This document shows, in pieces, positions 24,678 to 54,868 of a stretch of DNA of 64,000 bases (position 1 is its first letter; each line of letters begins with the position of its first letter). The notes under the pieces are model-generated. The model had not been told where the DNA came from. It saw nothing but the letters and a program-made list of their open reading frames with translations, and searched no databases. The position numbers and the translations under genes are program-made. Source of the DNA: Chloroflexota bacterium (GTDB lineage Bacteria; Chloroflexota; Anaerolineae; Anaerolineales; Anaerolineaceae); contig JAKAFP010000004.1 of NCBI GenBank assembly GCA_021825925.1, positions 186,001-250,000 on the forward strand, in the 5' to 3' direction.

Positions 24678-27094
<2,417 letters not shown>

Positions 27095-27095
27095 C

Positions 27096-27989
27096 TTAAT
27101 TGTTCTCCTTTCCAAAACCGCCTGTCAATTTCAATTGAACCAGGTTGGTGCTTAAGACCACTGCCAGCAAAATTAATCCGATGGCAGAAGCGAGGCCCAA
27201 CTGGCCTTGACTGATGCCGTTCTTGTAGAGCAACCCGACAATGGTCAAGCCAATGTTATGTGGAGAAGACTTCCCCGCCCAAAGCATTTGACTTTCGGCA
27301 AACATGGCCAGGCCACCGTAAATACTGATGGTCAATACATAAATGATGGTCGGTTTAAGCATGGGAATGGTGAGATACCTGAAACGCTGCCAGGTATTCG
27401 CTCCGTCAATTTCACACGCCTCATATAATTCCACAGGGATACTGTTTAGACCGGATAAAAAGTAGATAACGTTGATACCCGTCCAACGCCAACAAGCCAG
27501 TGTCACCATAACGGTCATGGCAGGCCACTGCAAGCTCAACCAACGAACCTTATCTCCCCCAAATAGATTGGTGATAACGCTGTTTACCAGAGAGGCGTCT
27601 GTTTCATTAAACATGAACCTAAAAGTAAGACCCGCCACGACCACGCTGCACAGAATTGGCATGAACAGAACTGCCCGATAAAGGCTGCTCGCTCGCATGG
27701 ATTTGCTGTTGAGCATCACGGCAAAGGTTAGCGGAAAAGGGATCAGCAGCAGCAAGGTCAAAGCCGTATAGATCAGGGTGTTGCGAATCGCGATGGGAAA
27801 ATCGGAATTGCTCAACAACACTCTATAATTTTCAAACCCCACAAATTGAATATCTTTGATATTGACACTTTGAAAACTCATTACAATCGTGCTGCCTATG
27901 GAATAAACAAAGAACACCAAAAAAATCAGCACGAAAGGCAGGACGAAAATATAGGGGGCGACCTTTTGAGAGTTCAGTTTTCGTTTCAT
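27096..27989 (-). CDS. Carbohydrate ABC transporter permease (MalF/AraP type)
   Basis: The protein has 297 residues from the ATG at 27989, which has a GAGAAG site 5 nt upstream. A longer form starting at 28052 is possible (318 residues), but that ATG has no ribosome site and lies 3 nt beyond a strong hairpin. Six helices and the EAA loop ELYEACEIDGANTWQRF identify a CUT1-type permease subunit. It is the partner of the downstream permease and receives sugar from the lipoprotein encoded just upstream. Confidence 0.88.
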   Translation of the reverse strand: MKRKLNSQKVAPYIFVLPFVLIFLVFFVYSIGSTIVMSFQSVNIKDIQFVGFENYRVLLSNSDFPIAIRNTLIYTALTLLLLIPFPLTFAVMLNSKSMRASSLYRAVLFMPILCSVVVAGLTFRFMFNETDASLVNSVITNLFGGDKVRWLSLQWPAMTVMVTLACWRWTGINVIYFLSGLNSIPVELYEACEIDGANTWQRFRYLTIPMLKPTIIYVLTISIYGGLAMFAESQMLWAGKSSPHNIGLTIVGLLYKNGISQGQLGLASAIGLILLAVVLSTNLVQLKLTGGFGKENN

Positions 27990-37715: not shown

Positions 37716-39448
37716 TATGGTTTTGAGTTGAACCGTGCCTGCAAGTTTCGGGTGCCGTGTAGTTCAAACAGCGTTAACTTGTTTTTTCCGGGTTTCAAAA
37801 CTGTAGCCGGCACATAGAGCGCCTGCTGCGGACCAACCTTCCAGTAGCGGCCGAGGTTGAAACCGTTAACCCAGGCCACCCCTTTCACCCAACCTGGCAG
37901 CTTGAGAAAAGTATCCAATGGCTTTTCAACCACGAACTCCGCATGATAGAAGGCCGGTTCATTAAGCGGATTTTCAATCCCGGCATACTCCAATCCGGAA
38001 ACATCTTGCAGCGACAGGCAGTAGGTTTCCCAGTCAAAAACGTAATGTCCGTTCAAGATCACTCCATCCAGAATACCCTTGCGGTCCACCAGTTCCGGGC
38101 CAAAGTTAACCCGCCCCATGTTTTCAACCAAAATATCCAACTGGGCTCCGGATGCAGGCACGGTCACTTTCAGGCTCTGATTGGGACGGTTGCGGCGTAG
38201 AACTCCGAGCGGCTTTCCATCCAAAAAGACCTGGGCGCGGTCGCGCAAGCCTTTGATGGAAAGTGCTCCACTCTGTGGGCCACTTAAACGGGTTCTATAA
38301 AGGATGAATCCGTAGTTTTGATCGAGATATTCCATCGGTTCAGTATTCGCTGTATGCACTGGTGTCGAAAGCTTGGGCAGCGCCTTCCACAATGAAACGC
38401 CTCCCGTCACTTTCACAGTTTCAAGCTGCAACTTGGGGCTGGGTGCTGGCAGGGGTTCGTCGGGGACAGGTGCAATCTTGCGGATTGCATTGCGCAGCGC
38501 ATGGTATTTCCTGGTAATGTCTCCTGCCTCGGATAGCGGCGCGTCATAATCGTATGAGTTGATGATCGGCAGGTATTTGCCAAAAACGTGATTGGCGCCG
38601 TTCATGAATCCAAAATTTGTGCCGCCATGCCACATGTACAAATTGACCGAAGCACCAAGCTTCAACATTCTTTCGAAGATCCTGGTCACTCCTCCGGCGG
38701 GCCGGATGTTGTGCCAAAGATTCCAATGATCAAACCAGCCATCCCAAAACTCGGAGCACATCAGCGGCCCCTCGGGCTGAAGTTCTCGCAGCAATTTGAA
38801 GGCATGTTCGGGAGCATGGTCGAAGTTAACCGTGGCAAAGGTTCCCTCCAGCATGCCGGCTTTGAGGTTGCGTCCCTGTTCGCCATCCGAAGTGAACAGA
38901 AACTCAACAATACCCATTCTTTTCAGGCTGTCGCGAATATAAGCCAGATAAGCCTTGTCATCGCCGTAACTACCGTATTCATTTTCGACCTGGACCATGA
39001 TGATCGGGCCGCCGTGAGAATACTGCAGCGGAATGAGCGGGTTTAGCAGAACCTCAAAAAAGCGGTCCATGGCGGCCAGAAAAGGAGGATAAGAACAGCG
39101 CACCCGCATATGTGGATCTTTAAGCAGCCAGGCGGGCAGCCCGCCAAAATCCCATTCCGAACAAATGTAGGGTCCGGGACGCAGGATCACTTTCAATCCA
39201 TGCCGGGCAGCAGCTTTAATGAAAGCCTCAATATCCAGATTTCCCTCGAAATGGAATTCACCCGGTTTGGGTTCATGCAGGTTCCACGAAACGTAAGTCT
39301 CAATGGCATTGAGTCCCATCAAGCGTGCTTTTTCGAGACGGTCATCCCAATACTCGCGTGGCACACGGAAATAATGCATGGAGCCTGAGAGAATGCGAAA
39401 GGGTTTGCCATCCAGCATGAACTGGTCTCCAGAGATGGTGAGCGTCAT
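37715..39448 (-). CDS. GH35 beta-galactosidase
   Basis: The protein has 577 residues. It begins GDQFMLDGKPFRILSGSMHY, the GH35 signature, with LRPGPYICSEWDFGGLP, the acid/base Glu in ENEYGSYG (about E157) and the nucleophile Glu in MCSEFWDGW (about E233). The C-terminal part holds two beta jelly-roll domains, as in other GH35 enzymes. There is no signal peptide, so it is cytoplasmic and removes beta-galactosyl residues from imported oligosaccharides. Its start overlaps the GH31 stop codon (ATGA), so the two are translationally coupled. Confidence 0.93.
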   Translation of the reverse strand: MTLTISGDQFMLDGKPFRILSGSMHYFRVPREYWDDRLEKARLMGLNAIETYVSWNLHEPKPGEFHFEGNLDIEAFIKAAARHGLKVILRPGPYICSEWDFGGLPAWLLKDPHMRVRCSYPPFLAAMDRFFEVLLNPLIPLQYSHGGPIIMVQVENEYGSYGDDKAYLAYIRDSLKRMGIVEFLFTSDGEQGRNLKAGMLEGTFATVNFDHAPEHAFKLLRELQPEGPLMCSEFWDGWFDHWNLWHNIRPAGGVTRIFERMLKLGASVNLYMWHGGTNFGFMNGANHVFGKYLPIINSYDYDAPLSEAGDITRKYHALRNAIRKIAPVPDEPLPAPSPKLQLETVKVTGGVSLWKALPKLSTPVHTANTEPMEYLDQNYGFILYRTRLSGPQSGALSIKGLRDRAQVFLDGKPLGVLRRNRPNQSLKVTVPASGAQLDILVENMGRVNFGPELVDRKGILDGVILNGHYVFDWETYCLSLQDVSGLEYAGIENPLNEPAFYHAEFVVEKPLDTFLKLPGWVKGVAWVNGFNLGRYWKVGPQQALYVPATVLKPGKNKLTLFELHGTRNLQARFNSKP

Positions 39449-41697
39449 TTTAACTCCTTGGTATTAAGTTTTAGATTGATCGAGAAAGCTTGATTGGCTG
39501 GAAGTGAGAAGGGCTCCAAGCTAAGCGTATGGGTTTGTGCATCGTACTCACCCGAGATGACTGCCTGGATTGATTGATCAACACCACGCAGATGGATGCG
39601 ATAGGTGCGGTTTTCAGGAATGAACCCCAGATTACCCTTTGCTGCATGGATGGTGAAGAAACCATCAAGCAGCGAGAAGCGTGTAACACAGTGATCGCCG
39701 CGTTGATAATCCGTGGTCAGACCGTCATCTTCATACAATTCAAAGGCATTATCTGCACCTGGGAACACGTGGATATCCAGTATCGCTGGATTATCAACCC
39801 CACCCCAGCCGGTCATCGGCGCCAGCGGGATGATCGCCCCCGGTTTGGCAAAAACAGGGATGTCTTCCAGTTCCGCGGATATGGACTGCCACTGACTGCC
39901 GTTGAATTTTTCGCCACTGAACAAATCTGTCCAGGTGCCTTCCGGCAGCCAGAACCGTTTCTGCACCAGGTTTGTTTCAGGGTTGGCAGGTTCAACAATT
40001 GGTGCTGCAATCAACTCGGAGCCAAAGAAATACTGATCCTTCGCCTGGTAAGCCTGCGGCTCTTCCATGTTTCCGAAATACATGGGGGCGACCAGGCTGA
40101 TACCCGTCTGATGGGCGCGCCAGGCCATGCTGTATATATAGGGGATCAGCGCATGCCGTAATTGAAGCGCTTGTTTGGTTGCTTTATAGATGCGCTCCGG
40201 TTTGTGCCAGGGACGGCGCTCCAGTTCAGCCTTTTTGGTGGAGTGAAACCTGAAGATCGGGCTGAACACACCAAATTGAACCCAACGTAAATAGAGCTCC
40301 GGAGTCAGCTCCTTGACCATGTGCCCACCAATGTCATGGCTCCACCAACCGTAAGCCACGTTGGCCGCGGTGGACGTGAAATAAGGCTGGTAGGCCAGTG
40401 TTTTCCAGCTCACAAAGGTGTCTCCGCTGAACCCGATCGGGTAACGGTGATTGCCAAGCCCACCCCAGCGCGAAAACACGAAAGGACGTTTGCGCCCATC
40501 ACGGCCGAGGTCTTGATAGTGCAGGTGATTCAACAGCCAGAGCGGGTCCAGCCCCGGGATCTTGCTGGATCTCTTCTGTTGATAATCCATCCACCAGAAA
40601 TCAACCCCTTCCACCTTCGTTGAATTTGTAGATTCCTTTTTTGAAACCATCTCTTCATAAGGGTGGTGCAGAAACTTAAAATAACCATCCATGAAATGCG
40701 GGTCGGCGATGTCAAAGTGGATCGGTTTTTTTGAAGCCGGGTCTACGCCCATCCATTCGGCTAATTGGGGATACTGTTCTTCATGCGGGTAAACCCCGTT
40801 GGCGGGATGCAAGTTGAGCGCCGTACGCAGCCCCTGTTCGTGAAGCCATTGGATCAACCCTTCGGGATCAGGAAAAAGCTGCCTGTTCCAGGTGTATCCC
40901 GTCCAGCCATCGGAAAGGTTTCCAGTCTTGGTGATGTGCCAATCCATGTCAATGATGCAGACCGAGAGTGGAACTTCATGCACCTTAAAATCCAGCATCA
41001 ACTCTTTAAGTTCGTCCTGCGAATACTCCCAATACCGGCTCCACCAGTTGCCCAGAATATAGCGCGGGATCATGGGCATGGAACCTGACACGCGGGTGAA
41101 ATCAGCCAGGCAGGCAGAATAATCAGTGCCATAACCAAAGAAGTATAGGTCTTTGCTTTTGTCAAAGAAGCGGGCAGCTATGGAGGCCAACCCCCTTTTT
41201 GATGGAGCGTCTTTTCTTGCCTGTACCCAGCCAGAATCAGTAAACATGGGCGAAGTGGAATCATCCACGACTGCCCAGCCGGATCTCGACAACAGACCAT
41301 TATCCAATCTTGTGTTTCCTGCGTCCCCATCCAATGTGCGGGCGGTACCCTGCAGATTGTCAGATTGTAGTTCGCCATAATGCCAGGTTACATTTGTTTC
41401 CTTCAATTGGATGGACAGGTTGTCTGCACTGAATCCACGGAGGTCAGGTCGGTAATTGAGTCTCAGATAATCCGTTTCGATCTCAACAAGTTGATTTGTG
41501 ACGGTTTTTGTGAAAGCAGGCACGGGCTGCAGGCGGTGCCAGAAAGCCAGCGAAGGCCGATCTTCAAAATGCTTCCCTTTATCAAATTCAAGCCGGATCA
41601 AACGGTCCGTCAGCACCGTAAACCTGGCACAGCCAGCAATAATAACGGATTCTGCTTGCGCAACGGGATGAAACTCAGGAACCGGAGGAAGTGGCAT
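39445..41697 (-). CDS. GH31 alpha-glycosidase
   Basis: The protein has 750 residues. It has the GH31 N-terminal beta domain, the catalytic barrel with nucleophile Asp in WWMDYQQ (about D371) and acid/base Asp in SGDTFVSW (about D426), and C-terminal beta domains. VCIIDMDWH and RWGGLGNHRYPIGFSGD are also typical. The family covers alpha-glucosidases, alpha-xylosidases and alpha-galactosidases; the substrate cannot be fixed. It is the middle gene of tetR-GH31-GH35, so it probably trims the same galactose-containing oligosaccharide as its neighbours. There is no signal peptide. Confidence 0.9.
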   Translation of the reverse strand: MPLPPVPEFHPVAQAESVIIAGCARFTVLTDRLIRLEFDKGKHFEDRPSLAFWHRLQPVPAFTKTVTNQLVEIETDYLRLNYRPDLRGFSADNLSIQLKETNVTWHYGELQSDNLQGTARTLDGDAGNTRLDNGLLSRSGWAVVDDSTSPMFTDSGWVQARKDAPSKRGLASIAARFFDKSKDLYFFGYGTDYSACLADFTRVSGSMPMIPRYILGNWWSRYWEYSQDELKELMLDFKVHEVPLSVCIIDMDWHITKTGNLSDGWTGYTWNRQLFPDPEGLIQWLHEQGLRTALNLHPANGVYPHEEQYPQLAEWMGVDPASKKPIHFDIADPHFMDGYFKFLHHPYEEMVSKKESTNSTKVEGVDFWWMDYQQKRSSKIPGLDPLWLLNHLHYQDLGRDGRKRPFVFSRWGGLGNHRYPIGFSGDTFVSWKTLAYQPYFTSTAANVAYGWWSHDIGGHMVKELTPELYLRWVQFGVFSPIFRFHSTKKAELERRPWHKPERIYKATKQALQLRHALIPYIYSMAWRAHQTGISLVAPMYFGNMEEPQAYQAKDQYFFGSELIAAPIVEPANPETNLVQKRFWLPEGTWTDLFSGEKFNGSQWQSISAELEDIPVFAKPGAIIPLAPMTGWGGVDNPAILDIHVFPGADNAFELYEDDGLTTDYQRGDHCVTRFSLLDGFFTIHAAKGNLGFIPENRTYRIHLRGVDQSIQAVISGEYDAQTHTLSLEPFSLPANQAFSINLKLNTKELK

Positions 41698-41722: not shown

Positions 41723-42355
41723 TTACACGGGCAGCGGAAAATGTTCCTCTGACCAATCTGCAACGGTGAATTGATTTAATGTGAAGATCAAGAGTTGATC
41801 CACGGGGGCAACCTTGAGCCGTTCATGCATGGATTGGCCGTCAATGAACAAGCTGGTAAATCCGTGGACGGCGCTCCAGACGCTGACGGCCATGGCGCCA
41901 ACCGGAGCCGGATGCAGAATCCCTGCTTTTTGGCAGGCATCCACAATTTTAATCAATTCGCCCAAAAGGTTGTCGGCCGCGGCGACCAGGTCGGGATAGG
42001 CTTCTTCACGTTCCACCGCATTGGAGAAAGTCACTTTGAAGTGGGCGGGTTTGTTTTGGGCAAACCTCAAATACATGAACGCCGCCTCAACCAACTGCCG
42101 CTGCGCGTCCGCCTGGTGAGTCACGCGAATCAAGACAAGTTGCTCATACAAGGTCCGATATCCCTCGGTGGAGATGGCGGCGATCAACGCCTGTTTATCG
42201 GCAAAGTGAAAATAGGGAGCGTTGTGACTGACACCTGCCTTTTGAGCCACTTTGCGCAAGCTGAGCCCACCCACCCCTTCTTCAGCCAGGATTTCGATCC
42301 CCGCCTGGATGAGGGTGTTTTTGAGATCACCGTGATGGTATTTTTTATTTTCCAT
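41723..42355 (-). CDS. TetR/AcrR family regulator with WHG-type C-terminal domain
   Basis: The protein has 210 residues. The N-terminal HTH (LSLRKVAQKAGVSHNAPYFHF) is the TetR type. The C-terminal region contains VWSAVHGFTSLFIDG, the WHG pattern of TetR_C_33/WHG domains. It heads the leftward tetR-GH31-GH35 operon (25 bp before GH31) and is divergent from the GH38-melA operon. The shared intergenic region has two TTGAC...GTCAA palindromes, so this protein probably represses both directions. The ligand is likely a sugar or sugar derivative. Confidence 0.88.
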   Translation of the reverse strand: MENKKYHHGDLKNTLIQAGIEILAEEGVGGLSLRKVAQKAGVSHNAPYFHFADKQALIAAISTEGYRTLYEQLVLIRVTHQADAQRQLVEAAFMYLRFAQNKPAHFKVTFSNAVEREEAYPDLVAAADNLLGELIKIVDACQKAGILHPAPVGAMAVSVWSAVHGFTSLFIDGQSMHERLKVAPVDQLLIFTLNQFTVADWSEEHFPLPV

Positions 42356-42483: not shown

Positions 42484-45159
42484 ATGACGATCGAAACGAT
42501 TTACATGATCCACCACACACATACGGATATCGGTTTTACCAATGACCAGCCCATTTTCTGGGAAATGCAGTACCGGTTTATTGATGATGCTTTACGTTTG
42601 ATTGATCGCTACAAAGACAATCCCCCTGATTCCAGGTTCCGTTGGACGGTGGAAACCACCTGCGGAATTGAAGCATGGCTCAAAACAGCTTCAAGCGCGG
42701 AAATAGACCGCCTGATCGCGGCTGACAAAGCTGGCCTGATCGAAATCATGGCCATGCAGACCAACAACACCCCTCTGCTTAACACAATCCAGTTGATCGA
42801 AAGCCTGCGTCCTGTCGAACGGTTGCGCAGGGAATATGGTCTCGATATCCGCCACGCCATGAACTGCGACATCAACGGCCAGAACTGGAGCCTGCCGGAC
42901 GTGCTCCTGGACGCTGGTATTGAGGCCTTCAGCATGGCCATCAATCATCATTTCGGCGGTCCTCCCACGCCCCGTCCAAATGTCTTTCTCTGGCAGACCC
43001 CCAGCGGGCGGGTTATTCCAACGCATAACGGCTGGCAGTACTCAAAATTGAATGATTTTGGACTCGGAAATGATAATGACGAAGCCTTTAGTGAATGGTT
43101 CCCGAAAATTGAGCAGTACCTGACCGAACATGGGTATCCCCTGCCCTTCATCATGATGGAGGGATTTCATCCTTTTGGCGATAATGGATCTGCCTGGGGT
43201 GCTTTCGCAGAATTTGCCGACCGTTGGAATAAAACCGGAAAAATCCCAAGGCTGGTTTCTGCCACACCCCGCATGTTCTGGGAACAAGTGAAAGGTCACT
43301 CTGCAAAACTTGAAACCATCCGCGGCGACTGGACGGATTATTGGAATTTTGGCTGCATTTCTGCAGCGAGAGAAACAACCATAAACCGCACCTCTCGCAG
43401 CCGCCTCCAAAGGGCTGACGCCCTGTCTTCAGCTTTACAGCTGCTCAAAAATACAGTCTCGGATCCGACCAATCCGGATGTCTCAGCGGTAAGGTGGTCC
43501 GACAGAACGATCGAATTACAGCGTGATAATGCCTGGCTGATGCTCAACTTATATGGTGAACACACCTGGGGAGCAGATACCGCCTCCAATGATCCGCAGC
43601 TGGAAGATTCGTTGGCAATGGATAATCATAAAAAGAACCTGGCTTTTACCGCCCGTTCTCTCAGCCTGCTGCTGGAACGCGATACATTGGCTGATTTCTC
43701 CCATTTCTTGCCGCATACTGACCCCACCGAGATGGTATTGTTCAATTCACTCCCCTGGGAACGCAGTATTTCCGGCACCATTCCAAAAAACCTGCTCATC
43801 CCTCGCGGGTTGAATACTGATCAGACTTCCAGCCGCCATGCGATTGGACGCATGGCGCAGCCGACCGACTTTTGGACGGACCGAAGTTTAAAGGATTTCA
43901 ATGGCGGCATGGGATGGCTGCTGAAACCTGTCACAGTGCCTGCTTTTGGTTATACGGTGGTGGGTTGGGATGCCTTGGACAGCATGTCCGAAGCGGAAGA
44001 AAGCGATGCAAACATCGTGGAAAACAACCGCTACCAGATCACTTTTGATAAAAACAAAGGCGGTATCAGTTCTTTGTTTGACAAGCAACTTAACCACGAA
44101 TGGATGGACTCATCTGCGGGTCACCCAATTCACGGGTTTGTTCATGAAGAGGTCGCTGACCATGAAACGCCAGAACCCCGCAAGAGGCTTTGCACCGTCA
44201 ACTGGACCATTGACCCAGACACCGAAAGAGGATGGCATCCTGATTGGCAAGCCAACCGCACATCACCCTCGAAAGTATTAATGCACAAAGTTTATCACCA
44301 CTCCTTTGGCACCGTGGTTGAACAAATTCTCGAACACGAAAAGATCGGCAAGATCCTGCAGCGGACGTTCATTCCATCCGAGGGCGATCAGATCGAGTTT
44401 CAATCTGAATGGCAGATGGGTACCACCATTCACCCAGAAGCAACCTACCTGCTCTTCCCATTCAACCTTCCCAACGCCCAGGCACGCTTTGATATCGGCG
44501 GCGTTCCCGTCCGCCCACACCTCGATCAAATTGCAGGATCCTGCCGTGATTACTTCACCGTCCAGGGATGGGTGGATTTTAATAACGGGCATCACGGCGT
44601 GACCATCGCCACCCCCGAAAACCCCATGGTGCAGTTGGGCGATTTTCATTTTGCCCACAACCAGGCTGAAGTTACACTTGAACGTGCCATGCTTTTGGGA
44701 TGGGTGACCAATAATTATTGGGAGACCAACTTCCCCGGAGCGCAGCCCGGTGTCGTTACAGCCTGCTACGCCATCCTGCCTTATGCCGGTGAATTTGATG
44801 AATCCCGCGCCCACCGGTTCGCCGCGGAGGTTGAACACGCTCGCCCCGTCTTGCAGCATATGGGCGAAGTTGCCGCAGCGACTCAACTGCCAGGTTCTGG
44901 AACCCTGCTGAACCTGCCACAACCACCCATCCTGACCTTGAGCTTGCGCAGATCTGCTGATAATGGAGTATTGGTAACTTTATTGAATTCAAGCGATAAT
45001 AGCATCAATGCGGCGCTCGCCAGCGGATTATTGAAATTTAGATCGGCCTGGATATGCGACCTGTTTGGCAACCGGCTTGAGAATGTTCAGGTTGTTAACG
45101 GCAAACTGGAAATTTCCATCACTGCCCGCCGCATCATCACCTTACTTTTGGAGGCATAA
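42484..45159 (+). CDS. GH38 alpha-mannosidase-like glycoside hydrolase
   Basis: The protein has 891 residues. It starts [14 protein letters not shown], the GH38 metal-binding N terminus (His-x-Asp), and has the nucleophile Asp in NCDINGQNW (about D129). A long C-terminal beta part follows, as in other GH38 enzymes. It is most like the bacterial subfamily that lacks a signal peptide, so it should act on imported alpha-mannosides; an alternative sugar cannot be excluded because this branch is poorly characterised. GGTGAGG precedes the ATG. It is the first gene of the rightward operon with melA, a small protein and a transporter. Confidence 0.82.
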
Positions 45160-46527: not shown

Positions 46528-46887
46528 ATGTTTCCACCCTTCATTCTCGCCAAGTTGTATGTCAAAGGCACCCTCAAAAACACTGCCACCGGTTTCGAAT
46601 TTACTTTGAAAAACATCATTGATTCAACCCTGTTGATCGGCATCGGACCGATAACCGTCGGCAGTAAAGTCTATGAAGGTGCAGCGCTCACCATGACAGT
46701 ACCAGAAAAATCCGTCAGCGGTGCGGAAATTTCAAGCAAGAACTCCATCCCCGCCCGAATGGGCATTCCCATTGTGGTCAGCATCACCGGCGACCCGCTC
46801 GCCCCCGGTCAAAACAAGATCGGCGTGGCAGCCACCACCAGCGATATCGGTGTGATCAAGTTTGAGATCAACGATACGGTTGCGTAA
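46528..46887 (+). CDS. Small beta-rich protein in GH4 operon (possible C-glycoside deglycosidase beta-subunit-like)
   Basis: The protein has 119 residues and GGAGA before the ATG. There is no signal peptide. The sequence alternates strands and turns: LYVKGTLKNTATGFEFTLKN, then IGPITVGSKVYEG, LAPGQNKIGVAATT and IGVIKFEINDTVA. The pattern resembles the small beta-sandwich subunit of bacterial C-glycoside deglycosidases (DUF6379-like), from memory and without alignment. No large (isomerase-like) subunit is present here; the flanking gene is instead GH4, which also works through a C3-keto sugar. It is between melA (38 bp) and the sugar transporter (32 bp), so it belongs to the operon. Confidence 0.6.
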   Translation: MFPPFILAKLYVKGTLKNTATGFEFTLKNIIDSTLLIGIGPITVGSKVYEGAALTMTVPEKSVSGAEISSKNSIPARMGIPIVVSITGDPLAPGQNKIGVAATTSDIGVIKFEINDTVA

Positions 46888-46919: not shown

Positions 46920-48326
46920 ATGACCGCTAATGCCAATTCGGTGATCACCAGTAGTTTACCTGCGCAAGAGCCTTTCCCAACGTGGAGGATCGTCCTCTGG
47001 GCATTGGGTTACGTTGGCACTGTCATCATCGGCAGCCTGGCTGGTCTGATGACCTATTTTTATATGCCACCAGAGACGACCCAATCCTCATTTCCACAAT
47101 ACCTTTCCAATTCCACGGTTTTTGGCATCACCATCCTGGGCTTGATCGGTTACGTGGGCGGCATTCTGGTGATTTTGATAAATCCTTTCATTGCGCAGTG
47201 GAGCGACCGCTCGACCAACCGCATCGGTCGGCGAAAACTTTTCATGCTGGTCTCCTTTTTGCCGATCTCGATCTTGAGCTATCTCGTTTTTGCACCGCCA
47301 GTGGATCACATCAGCTCCGCCAATGCCGTCTGGCTCTTCGTGATCGTCATCCTGTTGAACATTTTCCGCAGCCTGTTTAATGTCTCGGGCGCGATCATCC
47401 CTGAATTCAGCTCCTCCAGCAGTATTTTGATGAAATTCAACACCTACAATTCCATTGGCTGGGTGTTCGGATTCATCATCGGCTCGCAAGCCATCTACTT
47501 GATCAAGGACGCCTTGATCAATTCGGGCATGAGTCCGGTGGATGCCTTCCGGTTGACGGTCGGCGGGTTGATTCTGGTATCCACTTTATTGGTTGCACTT
47601 CAGATCTGGGTTGTGGATGAACGCCGTTACGGTTCAGGCAAAACCTCTCAGGTTAACCTGTGGACGGCGCTCAAAATGACCTTTTCCAATAAGATCTTCG
47701 TCCTTTATACCCTGACCTGCCAGGTCTATTTTTGGGGCGACGGTCTCTTCCAGGCTGGATTGGTTTACTTTGTCACCATCATTTTTGGATATTCTGACTC
47801 GATGATGGTTGCTTTTGGCGGCACGATCCTGGGATTATCCTTCCTCATTTACCCTTTTGTCGCCACCATGGCTAAACGGACGGGCAAGAAAAACCTGCTG
47901 ATGATCGCCCTGCTGATCATGTCCGTGGTGATGATCGCCCTCGGGTTTGCCGATAAACTGCCCTTCCCGGTGAAGATCACCTCATGGGTCATCGTGGCCA
48001 TCATAGCCCTGCCAGGCGCCATCACCGGCATCATCCCAGGAGCGATCAACAACGAGATCGTACGGGAAGACTGCCTGCGTACCGGCGAAGCCAAGGAAGC
48101 CAACTTTGGCGCGGCAGCCAGTTTGCTGACTGCCATCCCCAGCGGTTTTGTCAGCCTGATCATGCCCTCCATCCTGCTGCTCGGACGAAGCACGGAGAAT
48201 CCGGCCGGAGTGCGTCTGGTCGCCTTCATCAGCGCCGTGTGCATGCTGGCTGCCCTTGCGATGCTCTACTTCCTGTACGATGAAAAGAAGATCCTGGCTT
48301 CTCTCAAGAAATTTGGGTACGAATAA
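46920..48326 (+). CDS. GPH-type MFS sugar:cation symporter
   Basis: The protein has 468 residues. GGGAGG lies 7 nt before the ATG at 46920. It has 12 hydrophobic helices and the loop QWSDRSTNRIGRRKLFML, the D-R-x-x-x-x-x-G-R-R motif of the glycoside-pentoside-hexuronide/SLC45 group. It should import the glycosides cut by GH38, MelA, GH31 and GH35. It is the last gene of its operon, followed by a strong terminator. Confidence 0.88.
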   Translation: MTANANSVITSSLPAQEPFPTWRIVLWALGYVGTVIIGSLAGLMTYFYMPPETTQSSFPQYLSNSTVFGITILGLIGYVGGILVILINPFIAQWSDRSTNRIGRRKLFMLVSFLPISILSYLVFAPPVDHISSANAVWLFVIVILLNIFRSLFNVSGAIIPEFSSSSSILMKFNTYNSIGWVFGFIIGSQAIYLIKDALINSGMSPVDAFRLTVGGLILVSTLLVALQIWVVDERRYGSGKTSQVNLWTALKMTFSNKIFVLYTLTCQVYFWGDGLFQAGLVYFVTIIFGYSDSMMVAFGGTILGLSFLIYPFVATMAKRTGKKNLLMIALLIMSVVMIALGFADKLPFPVKITSWVIVAIIALPGAITGIIPGAINNEIVREDCLRTGEAKEANFGAAASLLTAIPSGFVSLIMPSILLLGRSTENPAGVRLVAFISAVCMLAALAMLYFLYDEKKILASLKKFGYE

Positions 48327-51453: not shown

Positions 51454-53838
51454 TTAGAATCCGCCAAAAGCCGTGCGGGTGATGATCTCGTCCTGAAGTT
51501 GTTTGCTGAGGTCGCAGAAGTAATCGCTGTAACCCGCCACACGTACGATCAGGCTGCGGTACTGTTCGGGGTTTGCCTGTGCCGCCTTTAGAGTCTCAAC
51601 ATCCACCACATTAAACTGGATGTGATGCCCATCAAGGTTGAAGTAGCCGCGCACCAATTGCACAAGGCCGTTCATACCTTCTTCGCTCTCCAGCACCTGT
51701 GGGGTGAACTTCTGGTTAAGTAGCGTGCCGCCGGTGCGGACCTGGTCCATCTTGGCCACCGAGCGCACCACGGCAGTCGGCCCATGCTGATCGGCGCCCT
51801 GGACGGGTGAAACGCCTTCTGAAAGCGGTTTACCGGCGAAGCGTCCATCCGGCAGCGCACCGGTAACCGATCCAAAATAGATATGGCAGGTGGTGGGCAG
51901 CATGTTGATGTGATATTCGCCGCCTTTGGTGTTGCGGCGTCCATCCACCGCATTGAAATAGGATTCAAAGACGCGCACCATCAGGTCGTCCGCAGCATCA
52001 TCGTCATTGCCATATTTCGGGGTGCGATTCAAGAGCAGCTGTCGAGACCGTTCTGCGCCTTCAAAATTGGAATCCAGCAGCTTGAGCAGTTCGTCCATGG
52101 TGAAGTTTTTCTTATCATAAACGTGTGTCTTGATCGCCGAGAGTGAATCCGCCATGCTGCCGATGCCCACGCCCTGGATGTAGCTGGTGTTGTAACGCGC
52201 TCCGCCGTTGTGATAATCCTTGCCGGTGGAAATGCAATCATCGGTCAAGAGGGAAAGGAAGGGTGCAGGCATGTAGTTGGCGTACAGGCGTTCGATCACC
52301 TGATTGCCACGCACTTTGATATCCACAAAATGCAGCAACTGCTTCTCAAAAGCGACATAGAGCTGGTCAAAGTTTATAAACTTTATCGCATCTCCGGTCT
52401 GCGGACCGAGCTGCTTGCCTGTACGCGGATCCAATCCGTTGTGCAAAGTTAATTCAAGCACCTTGGGCAGGTTGAAGTAACCGGTCAGGTTGTAGTTTTC
52501 CTTGCCAAAAGCGCCCACCTCCACACAGCCGGAAGATCCCCCGCAGCGGGCATCCACCAGGGATTTGCCCGCGCGCATCAATTCCTGGGCGATCAGGTCC
52601 GCGTTGAAGATGGAGGGCTGGCCAAACCCGGTGCGAATGATCTTCGCCGCCCGCTTGATGAAACGGTCAGGGTTCTTCTTGCTGACCTGGATGGAGGAGG
52701 AGGGCTGCAGCAGGCGCATGTCTTCGATCACGTCCAGCAGCAGGTATGAGACCTCGTTAACCCCATCAGAGCCATCAGGCCTCAGGCCGCCCACGTTGAT
52801 CTGAGCGAAATCCGTGTAGGTACCGCTTTCCGCGGCGGTCACGCCCACCTTGGGCGGCGCAGGCTGGTTGTTGAACTTGATCCAGAAGCAGCACAACAGT
52901 TCTTTTGCCGCTTCGCGGGTCAGCGTGCCATCTGCCAGCCCGCTTTCGTAAAAGGGCTGCAGATGCTGATCCAGCCGGCCCGGGCAGTACGAATCCCAGG
53001 TGTTCAGTTCGGTGGTCACCCCAAGATGAACAAACCAGTAATACTGCAGCGCTTCATGCAGGTCACGCGGCGCGTGCGCCGGAATATGCCTGCAAACGTC
53101 CGCGATCTTTTTGAGTTCCCTTTTTCGGTTCTCATCCTGTTCCTGTTTTGCTAGTTCCTGAGCCAGTTGACTGTAACGCTCCGCAAAGCGGATGAGCGCG
53201 CCGGCAGCGATGCGCATGCCCTTGAGCTCCTCCTGTTTGTCGTAAGCCGCGGGATCGTTCAGAAAATCCAGCTTGGCCAGGCTGTCATCTATCTTCTTTT
53301 GAAAGTCGAGCATACCGTGATGATAGATCTTGTCATCCAACACAGTGTGACCCGGAGCACGCTGTTCCATGAATTCGGTGAAAATTCCCGCATCGTAGGC
53401 ATCCTTCCACTCCTGCGTCATTTCTGCAAACAATAGATCGCGGATGGATTTACCCTGCCAGATTGGGATGATCTTCTCGGCGTAGGCTTTACGGGTTTCG
53501 GGAGATACTTTGAAAGAGGTTAACGGGCGGGTATTTAAAATATCCAAATCTTCAAGCGAGTGGCAGCACAATTCCGGGAAGGAAGGAGCAGACTTGGGTT
53601 GGTCGCCCTTCTCACCCACGATCAATTCGCCGTCAAGGATGGCAATCCTCTTGTGTTCCAATAAATACGCAAAAGACATGGCCCGCTGCACCGGCACCGA
53701 AAGGATGCCCAAATTCTGCTGATAGAAATCCGTCAGTAGTTCAGCCCGCTCGCTCGAAATGGATTCAACCGCGTCCAGCGATTGCTGCCTGAGCCGGTTG
53801 ACCCGTTCACTGAGGTTTTGATTGTGGGTGTTTGTCAT
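51454..53838 (-). CDS. hypD: Glycyl radical dehydratase, trans-4-hydroxy-L-proline dehydratase-like
   Basis: The protein has 794 residues. GGAGG precedes the ATG at 53838. The active-site thiyl Cys is C438 in SGCVEVGAFG, with the C-x-E arrangement of dehydratase-class enzymes rather than the Cys-Cys of pyruvate formate-lyase, and the radical Gly is G769 in RVAGYSDYF. Both positions are offset by four from Clostridioides HypD (C434, G765). Shared segments from memory include FTEFMEQRAPGHTV and GRLDQHL. It would convert hydroxyproline to pyrroline-5-carboxylate; a different small diol or polyol is possible because the residues after CVE differ (VGAFGKE against TGCFGKE), and no pyrroline-5-carboxylate reductase gene is here. 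It is oxygen-sensitive. Confidence 0.75.
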   Translation of the reverse strand: MTNTHNQNLSERVNRLRQQSLDAVESISSERAELLTDFYQQNLGILSVPVQRAMSFAYLLEHKRIAILDGELIVGEKGDQPKSAPSFPELCCHSLEDLDILNTRPLTSFKVSPETRKAYAEKIIPIWQGKSIRDLLFAEMTQEWKDAYDAGIFTEFMEQRAPGHTVLDDKIYHHGMLDFQKKIDDSLAKLDFLNDPAAYDKQEELKGMRIAAGALIRFAERYSQLAQELAKQEQDENRKRELKKIADVCRHIPAHAPRDLHEALQYYWFVHLGVTTELNTWDSYCPGRLDQHLQPFYESGLADGTLTREAAKELLCCFWIKFNNQPAPPKVGVTAAESGTYTDFAQINVGGLRPDGSDGVNEVSYLLLDVIEDMRLLQPSSSIQVSKKNPDRFIKRAAKIIRTGFGQPSIFNADLIAQELMRAGKSLVDARCGGSSGCVEVGAFGKENYNLTGYFNLPKVLELTLHNGLDPRTGKQLGPQTGDAIKFINFDQLYVAFEKQLLHFVDIKVRGNQVIERLYANYMPAPFLSLLTDDCISTGKDYHNGGARYNTSYIQGVGIGSMADSLSAIKTHVYDKKNFTMDELLKLLDSNFEGAERSRQLLLNRTPKYGNDDDAADDLMVRVFESYFNAVDGRRNTKGGEYHINMLPTTCHIYFGSVTGALPDGRFAGKPLSEGVSPVQGADQHGPTAVVRSVAKMDQVRTGGTLLNQKFTPQVLESEEGMNGLVQLVRGYFNLDGHHIQFNVVDVETLKAAQANPEQYRSLIVRVAGYSDYFCDLSKQLQDEIITRTAFGGF

Positions 53839-53865
53839 CTTTCCTCCAGATCCCAAACGGGATGT

Positions 53866-54768
53866 TTAGCTTATCTTTACCTGTAATCCAGCCTGCTCAA
53901 GAATGTGTGCAGAACTGAACAAGTGATATTTATCAGGAGCCTTGATCTTTTTTAACAAATAATCCATCCCCAGCGCCTCATATTTGGCAGCCGCCAGATC
54001 GTGATACCCCATCAGTTCCACGCCGATGATATTCGGCAGCCTGCGGATGAACTCACCCGTTTGGCGCAAATTCTCTTCATCATCATTGATGCCCGGGATG
54101 AGCGGAATCCGAATGTAAACGACTGATCCGCTTTCAGCAAGCTGTGTGAGGTTTTTTAAGATCAGTTTGTTCGAGACCCCGGTGTATAGGATATGGCGGT
54201 CATCATCCATCATTTTCAGATCAAACAGAAACAAATCAACATACTTTCGTAAAGAATCCATCACTTCCCAGGTCGCGAAACCGGAAGTGTCCACCACCGT
54301 ATGCAGATCCCGTTCACGACAGGCGCGCAGCAGATCCAACAAAAAGCGGTGCTGCAAGAGTGGTTCACCACCCGAAAATGTGACCCCGCCACCCGAACCT
54401 TCGTAAAAGGGCGTGTCGCGCAGCACATCAGACATCACCTGCTCCACACTGACGCGATAGCCTGATATCTCGCGCGCACCGTTATAGCAGGCATCCGCGC
54501 AGGCACCGCAAGCCTCGCAGGTGGTACGGTCCGTGGCAGCAAATCCGTTGATGGAAATACTGTGGTGCTCACAAACACCCACACATTCCCCACAAAGCAC
54601 ACAGCGGTTGACGCGGTACATCAACACCGGAGTTCGAGATTGGCTCTCGGGATTGTGGCACCATTGACAGGCCAGCGGACAGCCCTGGAAAAACACCGTG
54701 GTGCGAATCCCAGGTCCGTCGTTGATGGAATATTTCTTGATATCGAAGATCAAGCCTGTTTCTGCCAT
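53866..54768 (-). CDS. Glycyl radical enzyme activase (radical SAM)
   Basis: The protein has 300 residues. It begins GLIFDIKKYSINDGPGIRTT, with the radical-SAM cluster motif CPLACQWC (C-x3-C-x2-C). An inserted ferredoxin-like domain (CVLCGECVGVC and CEACGACADAC) adds two 4Fe-4S clusters, as in activases of dehydratase-type enzymes but not of PFL. It generates the glycyl radical on the enzyme encoded 27 bp downstream. The ATG at 54768 has no ribosome site but lies 7 nt from a -10 box, so translation may be leaderless; upstream in-frame starts would need a longer transcript. Confidence 0.92.
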   Translation of the reverse strand: MAETGLIFDIKKYSINDGPGIRTTVFFQGCPLACQWCHNPESQSRTPVLMYRVNRCVLCGECVGVCEHHSISINGFAATDRTTCEACGACADACYNGAREISGYRVSVEQVMSDVLRDTPFYEGSGGGVTFSGGEPLLQHRFLLDLLRACRERDLHTVVDTSGFATWEVMDSLRKYVDLFLFDLKMMDDDRHILYTGVSNKLILKNLTQLAESGSVVYIRIPLIPGINDDEENLRQTGEFIRRLPNIIGVELMGYHDLAAAKYEALGMDYLLKKIKAPDKYHLFSSAHILEQAGLQVKIS

Positions 54769-54774
54769 AGTTGT

Positions 54775-54803
54775 AATATACGACCAACACACGTTGAAGT
54801 CAA
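54775..54803 (-). promoter_or_regulatory. Promoter of the activase-dehydratase operon
   Basis: Read leftward: TTGACT (54803-54798), 17-bp spacer, TATATT (54780-54775). The start codon of the activase is at about +1. Confidence 0.7.
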
Positions 54804-54822
54804 TATACAAATGGTATACAAT
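54794..54822 (+). promoter_or_regulatory. Promoter and putative operator of the gntR gene
   Basis: TTGAAG (54794-54799), 17-bp spacer, TACAAT (54817-54822). TGGTATACAA (54812-54821) fits the T-N-G-T-x-x-A-C-N-A pattern of FadR-subfamily GntR operators and overlaps the -10 box; it is 9 bp from the opposite promoter's -35 box. Confidence 0.6.
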
Positions 54823-54868
54823 ATGCATATAATAAATTAGTGTCAAATAATGAGATCAGGAGATTAGA

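Follow-up and report, generated by a model that had tools for sequence, protein, structure and literature searches.

The small subunit of the C-glycoside deglycosidases (CGDs) belongs to Pfam family PF19906 (CGDB, formerly DUF6379), whose members include DgpB, DfgB and AgCarC2 and which is represented in the PDB by entries 7bvr, 7bvs, 7dnm, 8qvc, 8umc, 9m3a and 9m3b. According to one report, this beta subunit forms the active site together with the alpha subunit, in assemblies that vary between alpha4beta4 and alpha-beta (PMC8563793). A second report (PMC10628242) describes, for PuCGE, a beta subunit that helps to close the aglycone pocket and a C-C cleavage reaction that requires Tyr39-beta of a YRG motif. 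The alpha subunit by itself has ~1.4% activity on the 3-keto O-glucoside and none on C-glucosides, and replacement of Tyr39-beta by Phe leads to a 2.4-fold (59%) loss on the 3-keto O-glucoside and a >99% loss on 3-keto C-glucosides. The same text already draws the chemical parallel between GH4 enzymes and CGDs, C3-keto beta-elimination with Mn, and the initial annotation of the present locus had likewise pointed to a C3-keto likeness.

The window analysed here, a stretch of 64,000 nucleotides of Chloroflexota DNA, carries a small gene whose product (P0001) resembles CGD beta. The features of the surrounding region are as follows:

37718-39448, minus strand: GH35 beta-galactosidase of the divergent arm (homology/Pfam scan)
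39445-41697, minus strand: GH31 glycosidase of the divergent arm (Pfam)
41723-42355, minus strand: divergent TetR-family regulator (Pfam)
42484-45159, plus strand: GH38-type glycosidase of 891 residues, second candidate partner of P0001
45161-46489, plus strand: GH4 glycosidase, alpha-galactosidase (MelA) subfamily by NCBIfam, first candidate partner of P0001
46514-46520, plus strand: ribosome-binding site AAAGGAG, 7 bases 5' of the P0001 ATG, read from the sequence
46528-46887, plus strand: P0001, CGD-beta-like beta-sandwich protein (PF25653) of 119 residues (ORF, Pfam, fold and profiles)
46920-48326, plus strand: MFS_2 sugar transporter (Pfam PF13347, 3.5e-28)

The initial annotation described a beta-rich protein of 119 residues between a GH4 gene and a transporter gene, and each of these elements is confirmed. 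The P0001 frame starts with ATG and has its stop codon inside 46528-46887, and the single opposite-strand frame translated across this stretch contains two in-frame stops. One base separates the end of the GH38-type gene from the start of the GH4 gene, and the gaps are 38 bases between GH4 and P0001 and 32 bases between P0001 and MFS_2, with all four genes on the same strand. The GH4 enzyme is matched by PF02056 (8.2e-53) and PF11975 (3.9e-48) and scores over the cut-off of NCBIfam PRK15076 (alpha-galactosidase subfamily). Family scores for the GH38-type enzyme are weak (5.5e-13 for PF01074 and just 15 bits for the NCBIfam mannosylglycerate hydrolase), and the transporter matches the GPH model TIGR00792 below its cut-off.

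Orthologues of P0001 are 83% (G013) and 92% (G001) identical within the genus and 65% identical in another family of the same order (G122). The dN/dS values of the gene against five orthologues are 0.03-0.17, a rough estimate with synonymous sites near saturation. The GH38-type gene, the GH4 gene and the small gene are all kept in three genomes of the same genus (G001, G007 and G013), with an MFS gene 3' of the small gene in G001 and G013; the G007 contig stops within the small gene. TetR genes are also present in the loci of G122 (contig L129) and L117. Because its orthologues are conserved and its dN/dS values are low, P0001 is a conserved protein-coding gene under purifying selection and not a chance frame. 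Farther along the window, within 51454-54846 on the minus strand, lies a glycyl radical enzyme (PFL-like and Gly_radical domains, Pfam); the adjoining radical-SAM protein with 4Fe-4S domains is probably its activase.

P0001 matches Pfam PF25653 (HMG-CoA_red_N) at E 6.9e-15 with 56 bits, passing the curated cut-off of 27, and all 49 aligned relatives match this family at E <= 1. PHROGs and NCBIfam hold no family for P0001. An AlphaFold model built on these 49 natural relatives, P0001 counted in, has a mean pLDDT of 93.9 and a pTM of 0.87. Foldseek searches of the PDB with this model return 17 matches at E <= 1e-3, all of them CGDs: either beta chains or, for the single-chain enzyme of Microbacterium testaceum, its N-terminal portion. 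After VIA re-alignment the first 12 rows are CGD chains (Z 11.4-13.4, rmsd 2.4-3.0 over 109-117 residues), followed at Z 8.1 by an archaellum FlaF/FlaG entry as the best non-CGD row. The beta-sandwich of CGD beta is thus matched by the model across its full length. A fold search of BFVD gives nothing at E <= 1e-3, none of eight pattern-matching stretches in viral contigs encodes a relative, and plasmids hold none at E <= 0.1.

Sequence profiles provide evidence for this kinship that is independent of the P0001 structure model. In an hmmsearch of the PDB with a profile built from the 49 relatives, three CGD beta sequences score 1.7e-6, 3.0e-5 and 3.1e-5; DfgB (0.53) and DgpB (1.1) appear in the same search amid unrelated chains (0.35, 1.0 and 1.9), and these two matches are worthless by themselves. 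Direct comparison of the 49 relatives with six CGDB proteins by hhalign yields a probability of 96.0% and a pairwise E-value of 4.2e-9. When a profile of the six CGDB proteins is run over 8232 locus frames at E <= 10, 25 frames are recovered, comprising the six input proteins plus 19 of PF25653 type, whose E-values range from 3.6e-6 to 0.11. The reverse direction is weaker, with a plain HMMER profile of the relatives reaching three of the six CGDB proteins at 0.002-0.03. The Pfam CGDB model is matched by 15 of the 49 relatives at E <= 1 (best 4.1e-6), and its sole match at E <= 0.001 in 201 Chloroflexota genomes (1.3e-4, below cut-off) falls on a PF25653 protein. A PF25653 protein from an archaeal MAG matches it at 5.5e-6, with 26.5 bits against a cut-off of 27.6, in a search run at E <= 10 in which four of 14 control genomes also gave matches, none above cut-off. 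P0001 itself has no match to PF19906 at E <= 1 and does not reach the curated cut-off, and phmmer with P0001 as the sole query finds chance-level matches in the PDB (best 0.24), so that a family profile is required. Since the top Foldseek and VIA matches are CGDs and the profile homology is significant, PF25653 and PF19906 almost certainly share ancestry. The resemblance to the CGD small subunit, which the initial annotation had offered and proposed to check against DUF6379, is therefore right as judged from model and family profiles, and this is notable at 11-22% identity between P0001 and the PDB CGD chains (Foldseek). The literature searched on PF25653, on DUF6379 and on the combined topic, with thin coverage of subscription journals, yielded no report of this link.

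Is P0001 then a CGD subunit in its own right? Its homology to CGD beta and its place in an operon of carbohydrate genes would both suit a true C-glycoside or C3-keto-glycoside deglycosidase subunit with its alpha subunit elsewhere in the genome, a reading that we consider very unlikely. At the column of Tyr39-beta (the first residue of YRG, located by manual counting along DgpB), all five CGDB sequences have Tyr and none of the 112 PF25653-type sequences does; P0001 has Asp32. The sixth CGDB protein (L133), left out of this count and of the domain tree, does have the tyrosine, as YTG. In 44 of the 112 a Tyr stands three columns further on, and an alignment slip is possible for those 44, but P0001 has no Tyr at all in residues 12-47. 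Each of the six CGDB loci has a TIM-barrel alpha-type gene next to the beta gene (identified by Pfam in L132 and L133 and by record annotation in L169-L172), whereas the neighbours of P0001 are the GH4 and MFS_2 genes, and the genes scanned between 37.7 and 54.8 kb of the window include neither an alpha-type TIM barrel nor a Gfo/Idh/MocA or GMC oxidoreductase. One alpha-subunit query found nothing at E <= 1 in the window's own genome, which is 84% complete, in a search with no independent positive control. Because the equivalent of Tyr39-beta is missing and the scanned neighbours include no alpha subunit or C3-oxidoreductase, we take P0001, on the basis of sequence, to be a relative of CGD beta and not a CGD beta subunit itself.

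The enzymes that P0001 does adjoin were examined across its clade, of which the sets searched contain nine members (G000, the window's genome, with G001, G007, G013, G122, L110, L117, G515 and G603) and which has a support of 0.99 in the domain tree, from which the truncated G007 copy was left out. GH4 adjoins the small protein in six of the nine, window included (G000, G001, G007, G013, G122 and L110), and these loci come from two bacterial families and one unplaced MAG. The stretches read for the other three contain no GH4: the L117 member adjoins a GH38-type gene in broken frames, the G515 member precedes a GH29 fucosidase on a 10 kb contig and the G603 member follows a HAD-family gene. A GH38-type gene is likewise found near the small protein in six of nine members (G000, G001, G007, G013, L110 and L117). 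A lipoprotein-like protein (by eye) of ~850-890 residues also lies near the GH4/small-protein pair at L110:6407-8953 and L129:8217-10874, and Pfam yields nothing at E <= 0.01 for the one in L110.

In an alignment of 30 GH4s, the six that have the small protein beside them cluster as a single clade. Just outside it are four GH4s, 70.1-79.2% identical to that of the window, with no PF25653-type protein within ~6-7 kb on each side, and a whole-genome search finds no PF25653 match on their contigs. GH4 also occurs in only two of 43 stand-alone PF25653 loci of a wider named set. Linkage between GH4 and the small protein is thus real but narrow, and GH4s of the same kind occur without it. Linked and unlinked GH4s are cleanly separated at two of 442 positions (F205 and V342), which is uninformative for a docking patch.

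Co-occurrence of the domain with GH4 across Chloroflexota, a check that the initial annotation had put forward, holds as a count and fails as evidence. GH4 is carried by 45 of 59 PF25653-positive and 151 of 341 PF25653-negative genomes (Fisher p 4.8e-6, from two printed lists matched by eye). However, 39 of the 59 positives come from just two families, f34 and f42, and the loci read there place the domain beside a class II aldolase (f34) or on a GH2 (f42), not beside GH4, so we set this association aside.

The window's genome has three PF25653 copies, namely P0001 and the N-termini of a GH32 and of a GH51, and the domain is found in 16 of 61 relatives' genomes at E <= 0.01 and in 59 of 400 genomes of a phylum sample at E <= 0.001. 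It is N-terminal on HMG-CoA reductase (HMGR) in three Chloroflexota loci (L006, L026 and L027) and C-terminal on GH2 in six loci read (Pfam, run on five of the six, scores it below cut-off in two). In the archaeal phylum of MAG L112 it occurs in 12 of 194 genomes, and at least four of the 12 have it on HMGR (L134, L135, L136 and L141). The PF25653 domain is therefore naturally fused to complete enzymes at either end, N-terminal in GH51, GH32 and HMGR and C-terminal in GH2. The AlphaFold model of the GH51 fusion (pLDDT 86.3, pTM 0.81) has a linker at residues 111-120 with a mean pLDDT of 60, and residues 137-630 match whole GH51 structures (VIA Z 43). No CGD chain is among the best 50 VIA rows of this model, which span only residues 131-630 and so exclude nothing.

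Stand-alone copies were collected by a named scan, using a pattern derived from such copies, that gave 43 loci, all stand-alone; by record title, 41 carry Chloroflexota-type names, one is from Bacillota and one from Aciduliprofundum. Single-linkage clusters of their neighbours include class II aldolase (25 loci), FGGY kinase (25), 2-hydroxyacid dehydrogenase (21) and NAD-dependent epimerase (15), and a common run is dehydrogenase, kinase, aldolase, small protein and epimerase (Pfam on the L118 copies). This run is conserved in L118, L119, L120, L122, L123, L128 and other Dehalococcoidia/SAR202 loci, and we would guess that it possibly constitutes an uncharacterised sugar-acid or deoxysugar pathway. 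In the archaeal locus (L112:2-4262, Aciduliprofundum sp. MAG), an FGGY kinase, a RuBisCO-large-type protein, the PF25653 protein and an MFS transporter form one run. Many settings of the domain are sugar-related, but not all, as HMGR and the lipid-kinase-type YegS/DAGK beside the L090 copy illustrate.

The Pfam name HMG-CoA_red_N reflects one fusion partner among several and is misleading for the stand-alone, GH51, GH32 and GH2 copies. Read literally, it would make P0001 part of isoprenoid metabolism, a role in keeping with the clear PF25653 match and with HMGR fusions having the best family score in each PF25653 search. P0001 is a stand-alone protein of 119 residues, however, and not the N-terminal part of an HMG-CoA reductase, its neighbours are glycosidases and a sugar transporter, and the same domain is found on three glycosidase families and in aldolase loci; we regard an isoprenoid role as extremely improbable.

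The fusions share one further neighbour. Of 18 GH51 and GH32 fusion loci, 15 have an MFS gene immediately upstream; in the other three an IS605-type transposase (L016) or an extra gene (L083) comes between, or no MFS is seen (L012/L195). The L016 insertion (L016:262-1425, genome G010) encodes an IS605-type OrfB transposase and separates the MFS gene from a domain-GH32 fusion. In wider loci of unfused GH51, by contrast, none of 10 has a homologue of the tested MFS types, some of these contigs being short (6-8 kb), and five of 10 have ABC permease homologues; a GH51 cut by a contig end (G011, L206) is left out of the fused and unfused counts. The window's genome has both kinds of GH51, one with the domain and one without, with catalytic parts ~31-33% identical. 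The domain-free GH51 is at 24708-25316 of the window (minus strand), with ABC permease homologues at ~26231-27953, whereas the fused one adjoins an MFS gene instead. In the FastTree domain tree (~119 residues, weak deep nodes, and built without G007 and other truncated copies, L007 and L017), the GH32 and GH51 domains group (0.76-0.89, a grouping to be used with caution), the node of GH51 domains alone has 0.42 and the L012 (GH51) domain falls outside both groupings. Because these domains group and the MFS gene is upstream in most of their loci, the catalytic part appears to have been exchanged behind a constant MFS-plus-domain pair. The 18 loci perhaps reduce by shared descent to one or two events.

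This arrangement raises the idea that the domain tethers a glycosidase to an MFS sugar importer on its cytosolic side, where imported oligosaccharide would be cut on entry. The fusion loci, the ten unfused GH51s without an MFS homologue and the grouping of GH32 and GH51 domains all agree with such a tether, as do the MFS genes 3' of both P0001 and the archaeal copy (L112). MFS genes are also present in five of six CGDB loci: L132, L170 and L172 have one directly upstream, in L133 it immediately follows the alpha gene, and in L169 it is three genes further along. The counts are, however, explained by descent from one or two founding fusions, and any intracellular glycosidase needs an importer anyway. 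The tested MFS types are present in only three of the 43 named loci (L095, L112 and L117) and MFS homologues are absent from the G122/L129 locus and from the aldolase-linked copies, the remaining CGDB locus (L171) has no MFS within 8.3 kb, and HMGR fusions have no obvious transporter role. We consider the tether improbable, and the short contigs among the unfused GH51s weaken it further.

Our tentative preference is that P0001 represents, as an unfused protein, a mobile beta-sandwich domain with an accessory, non-catalytic role and common ancestry with CGD beta. It would dock on a cytosolic enzyme from the same operon, in the way that CGD beta docks on the TIM-barrel alpha chain, and there shape the substrate entrance or stabilise the assembly. 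By analogy with that system, docking of this kind is plausible, if somewhat short of probable. What is observed on its side is the common fold, the profile homology, the conserved gene and the same-strand run with the GH38-type, GH4 and MFS genes, and the N-terminal beta part of the single-chain CGD (8un2/8qrz) supports an accessory nature. Gene order makes GH4 the first candidate partner and the GH38-type enzyme the second. That GH4 is the partner is possible and on the unlikely side; against it stand the close GH4 homologues without the small protein and the three clade members without GH4. The host enzymes are very diverse in both fold and chemistry, and a single docking mode is not evident among them. 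In the predicted structure, the low-confidence linker of the GH51 fusion would suit tethering no less than docking.

The domain might instead be a general stabilising or oligomerising element through which a host or partner assembles or stays folded, with no role at the active site. Fusion to enzymes of unrelated chemistry agrees with this, as do the near-invariant positions of the domain (P3, L7, S/T15, L16, G22, N29 and G108), which we read as structural and not catalytic, and the variable assembly of the CGDs. Its weak point is that the one studied relative, CGD beta, lines the active site and binds substrate according to both reports (PMC8563793, PMC10628242), and we rate a purely stabilising function as possible but rather unlikely. 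Joining these strands, the CGD beta and PF25653 superfamily may be a mobile module, present on GH51, GH32, GH2 and HMGR and as separate chains by GH4, class II aldolase and a RuBisCO-like enzyme, so that here GH4 would be an enzyme of two proteins, in which the non-catalytic one lines the active site as in CGD; by analogy this is conceivable, and we doubt it.

For the docked accessory protein that we favour, a catalytic contribution is not expected. GH51, GH32, GH2 and HMGR are enzymes not known to use C3-keto chemistry. Because the CGD tyrosine is missing and the domain is also on hydrolases and HMGR, P0001 should supply no catalytic residues for C3-keto chemistry, and its job would more probably be assembly, stability or leaving-group-side recognition. 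The proposal that P0001 is an accessory to a redox glycosidase thus survives in part: GH4 is adjacent in most of the clade, and a tie to redox or C3-keto glycosidases is not supported in view of the fusions, the class II aldolase loci, the four close GH4s without the neighbour and the absent tyrosine.

More interesting than the redox reading is the hidden kinship of PF25653 with CGD beta, together with the mobility of the domain. DgpB, a CGD beta protein, is described as poorly annotated in a review from 2025 (PMC12141560). Its family is now linked to a domain fused to three glycosidase families and HMGR, in bacteria and archaea, and this link suggests that the CGD beta-type domain is a general accessory module. 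The question thereby raised is what one small beta-sandwich does for enzymes with no fold or chemistry in common, and the fused and unfused GH51 of this genome offer a ready experiment on the domain's job.

How, then, does P0001 compare with the known systems? With CGD beta it has in common a beta-sandwich over its whole length and significant profile homology; both are encoded by small accessory genes of glycoside operons, and an immediately adjoining MFS gene is also seen in three of six CGDB loci. It differs in lacking the YRG tyrosine and a PF19906 match of its own, and in being flanked by GH4 and GH38-type genes and not by a TIM-barrel alpha or, among the genes scanned, a C3-oxidoreductase. 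Its direct family match is to PF25653, and in contrast to the domain on HMG-CoA reductase it stands alone in a glycoside operon. Among GH4 glycosidases (MelA, GlvA and BglT), its neighbour is of the MelA subfamily; related GH4s occur without a small protein, and no GH4 accessory subunit came up in the literature searched, in which subscription journals are thinly covered. The Microbacterium testaceum single-chain CGD (8un2 and 8qrz) has its beta-like part at the N-terminus, like the GH51 and GH32 fusions, and the remainder we take, by homology, to be the CGD alpha part; P0001, by contrast, is unfused.
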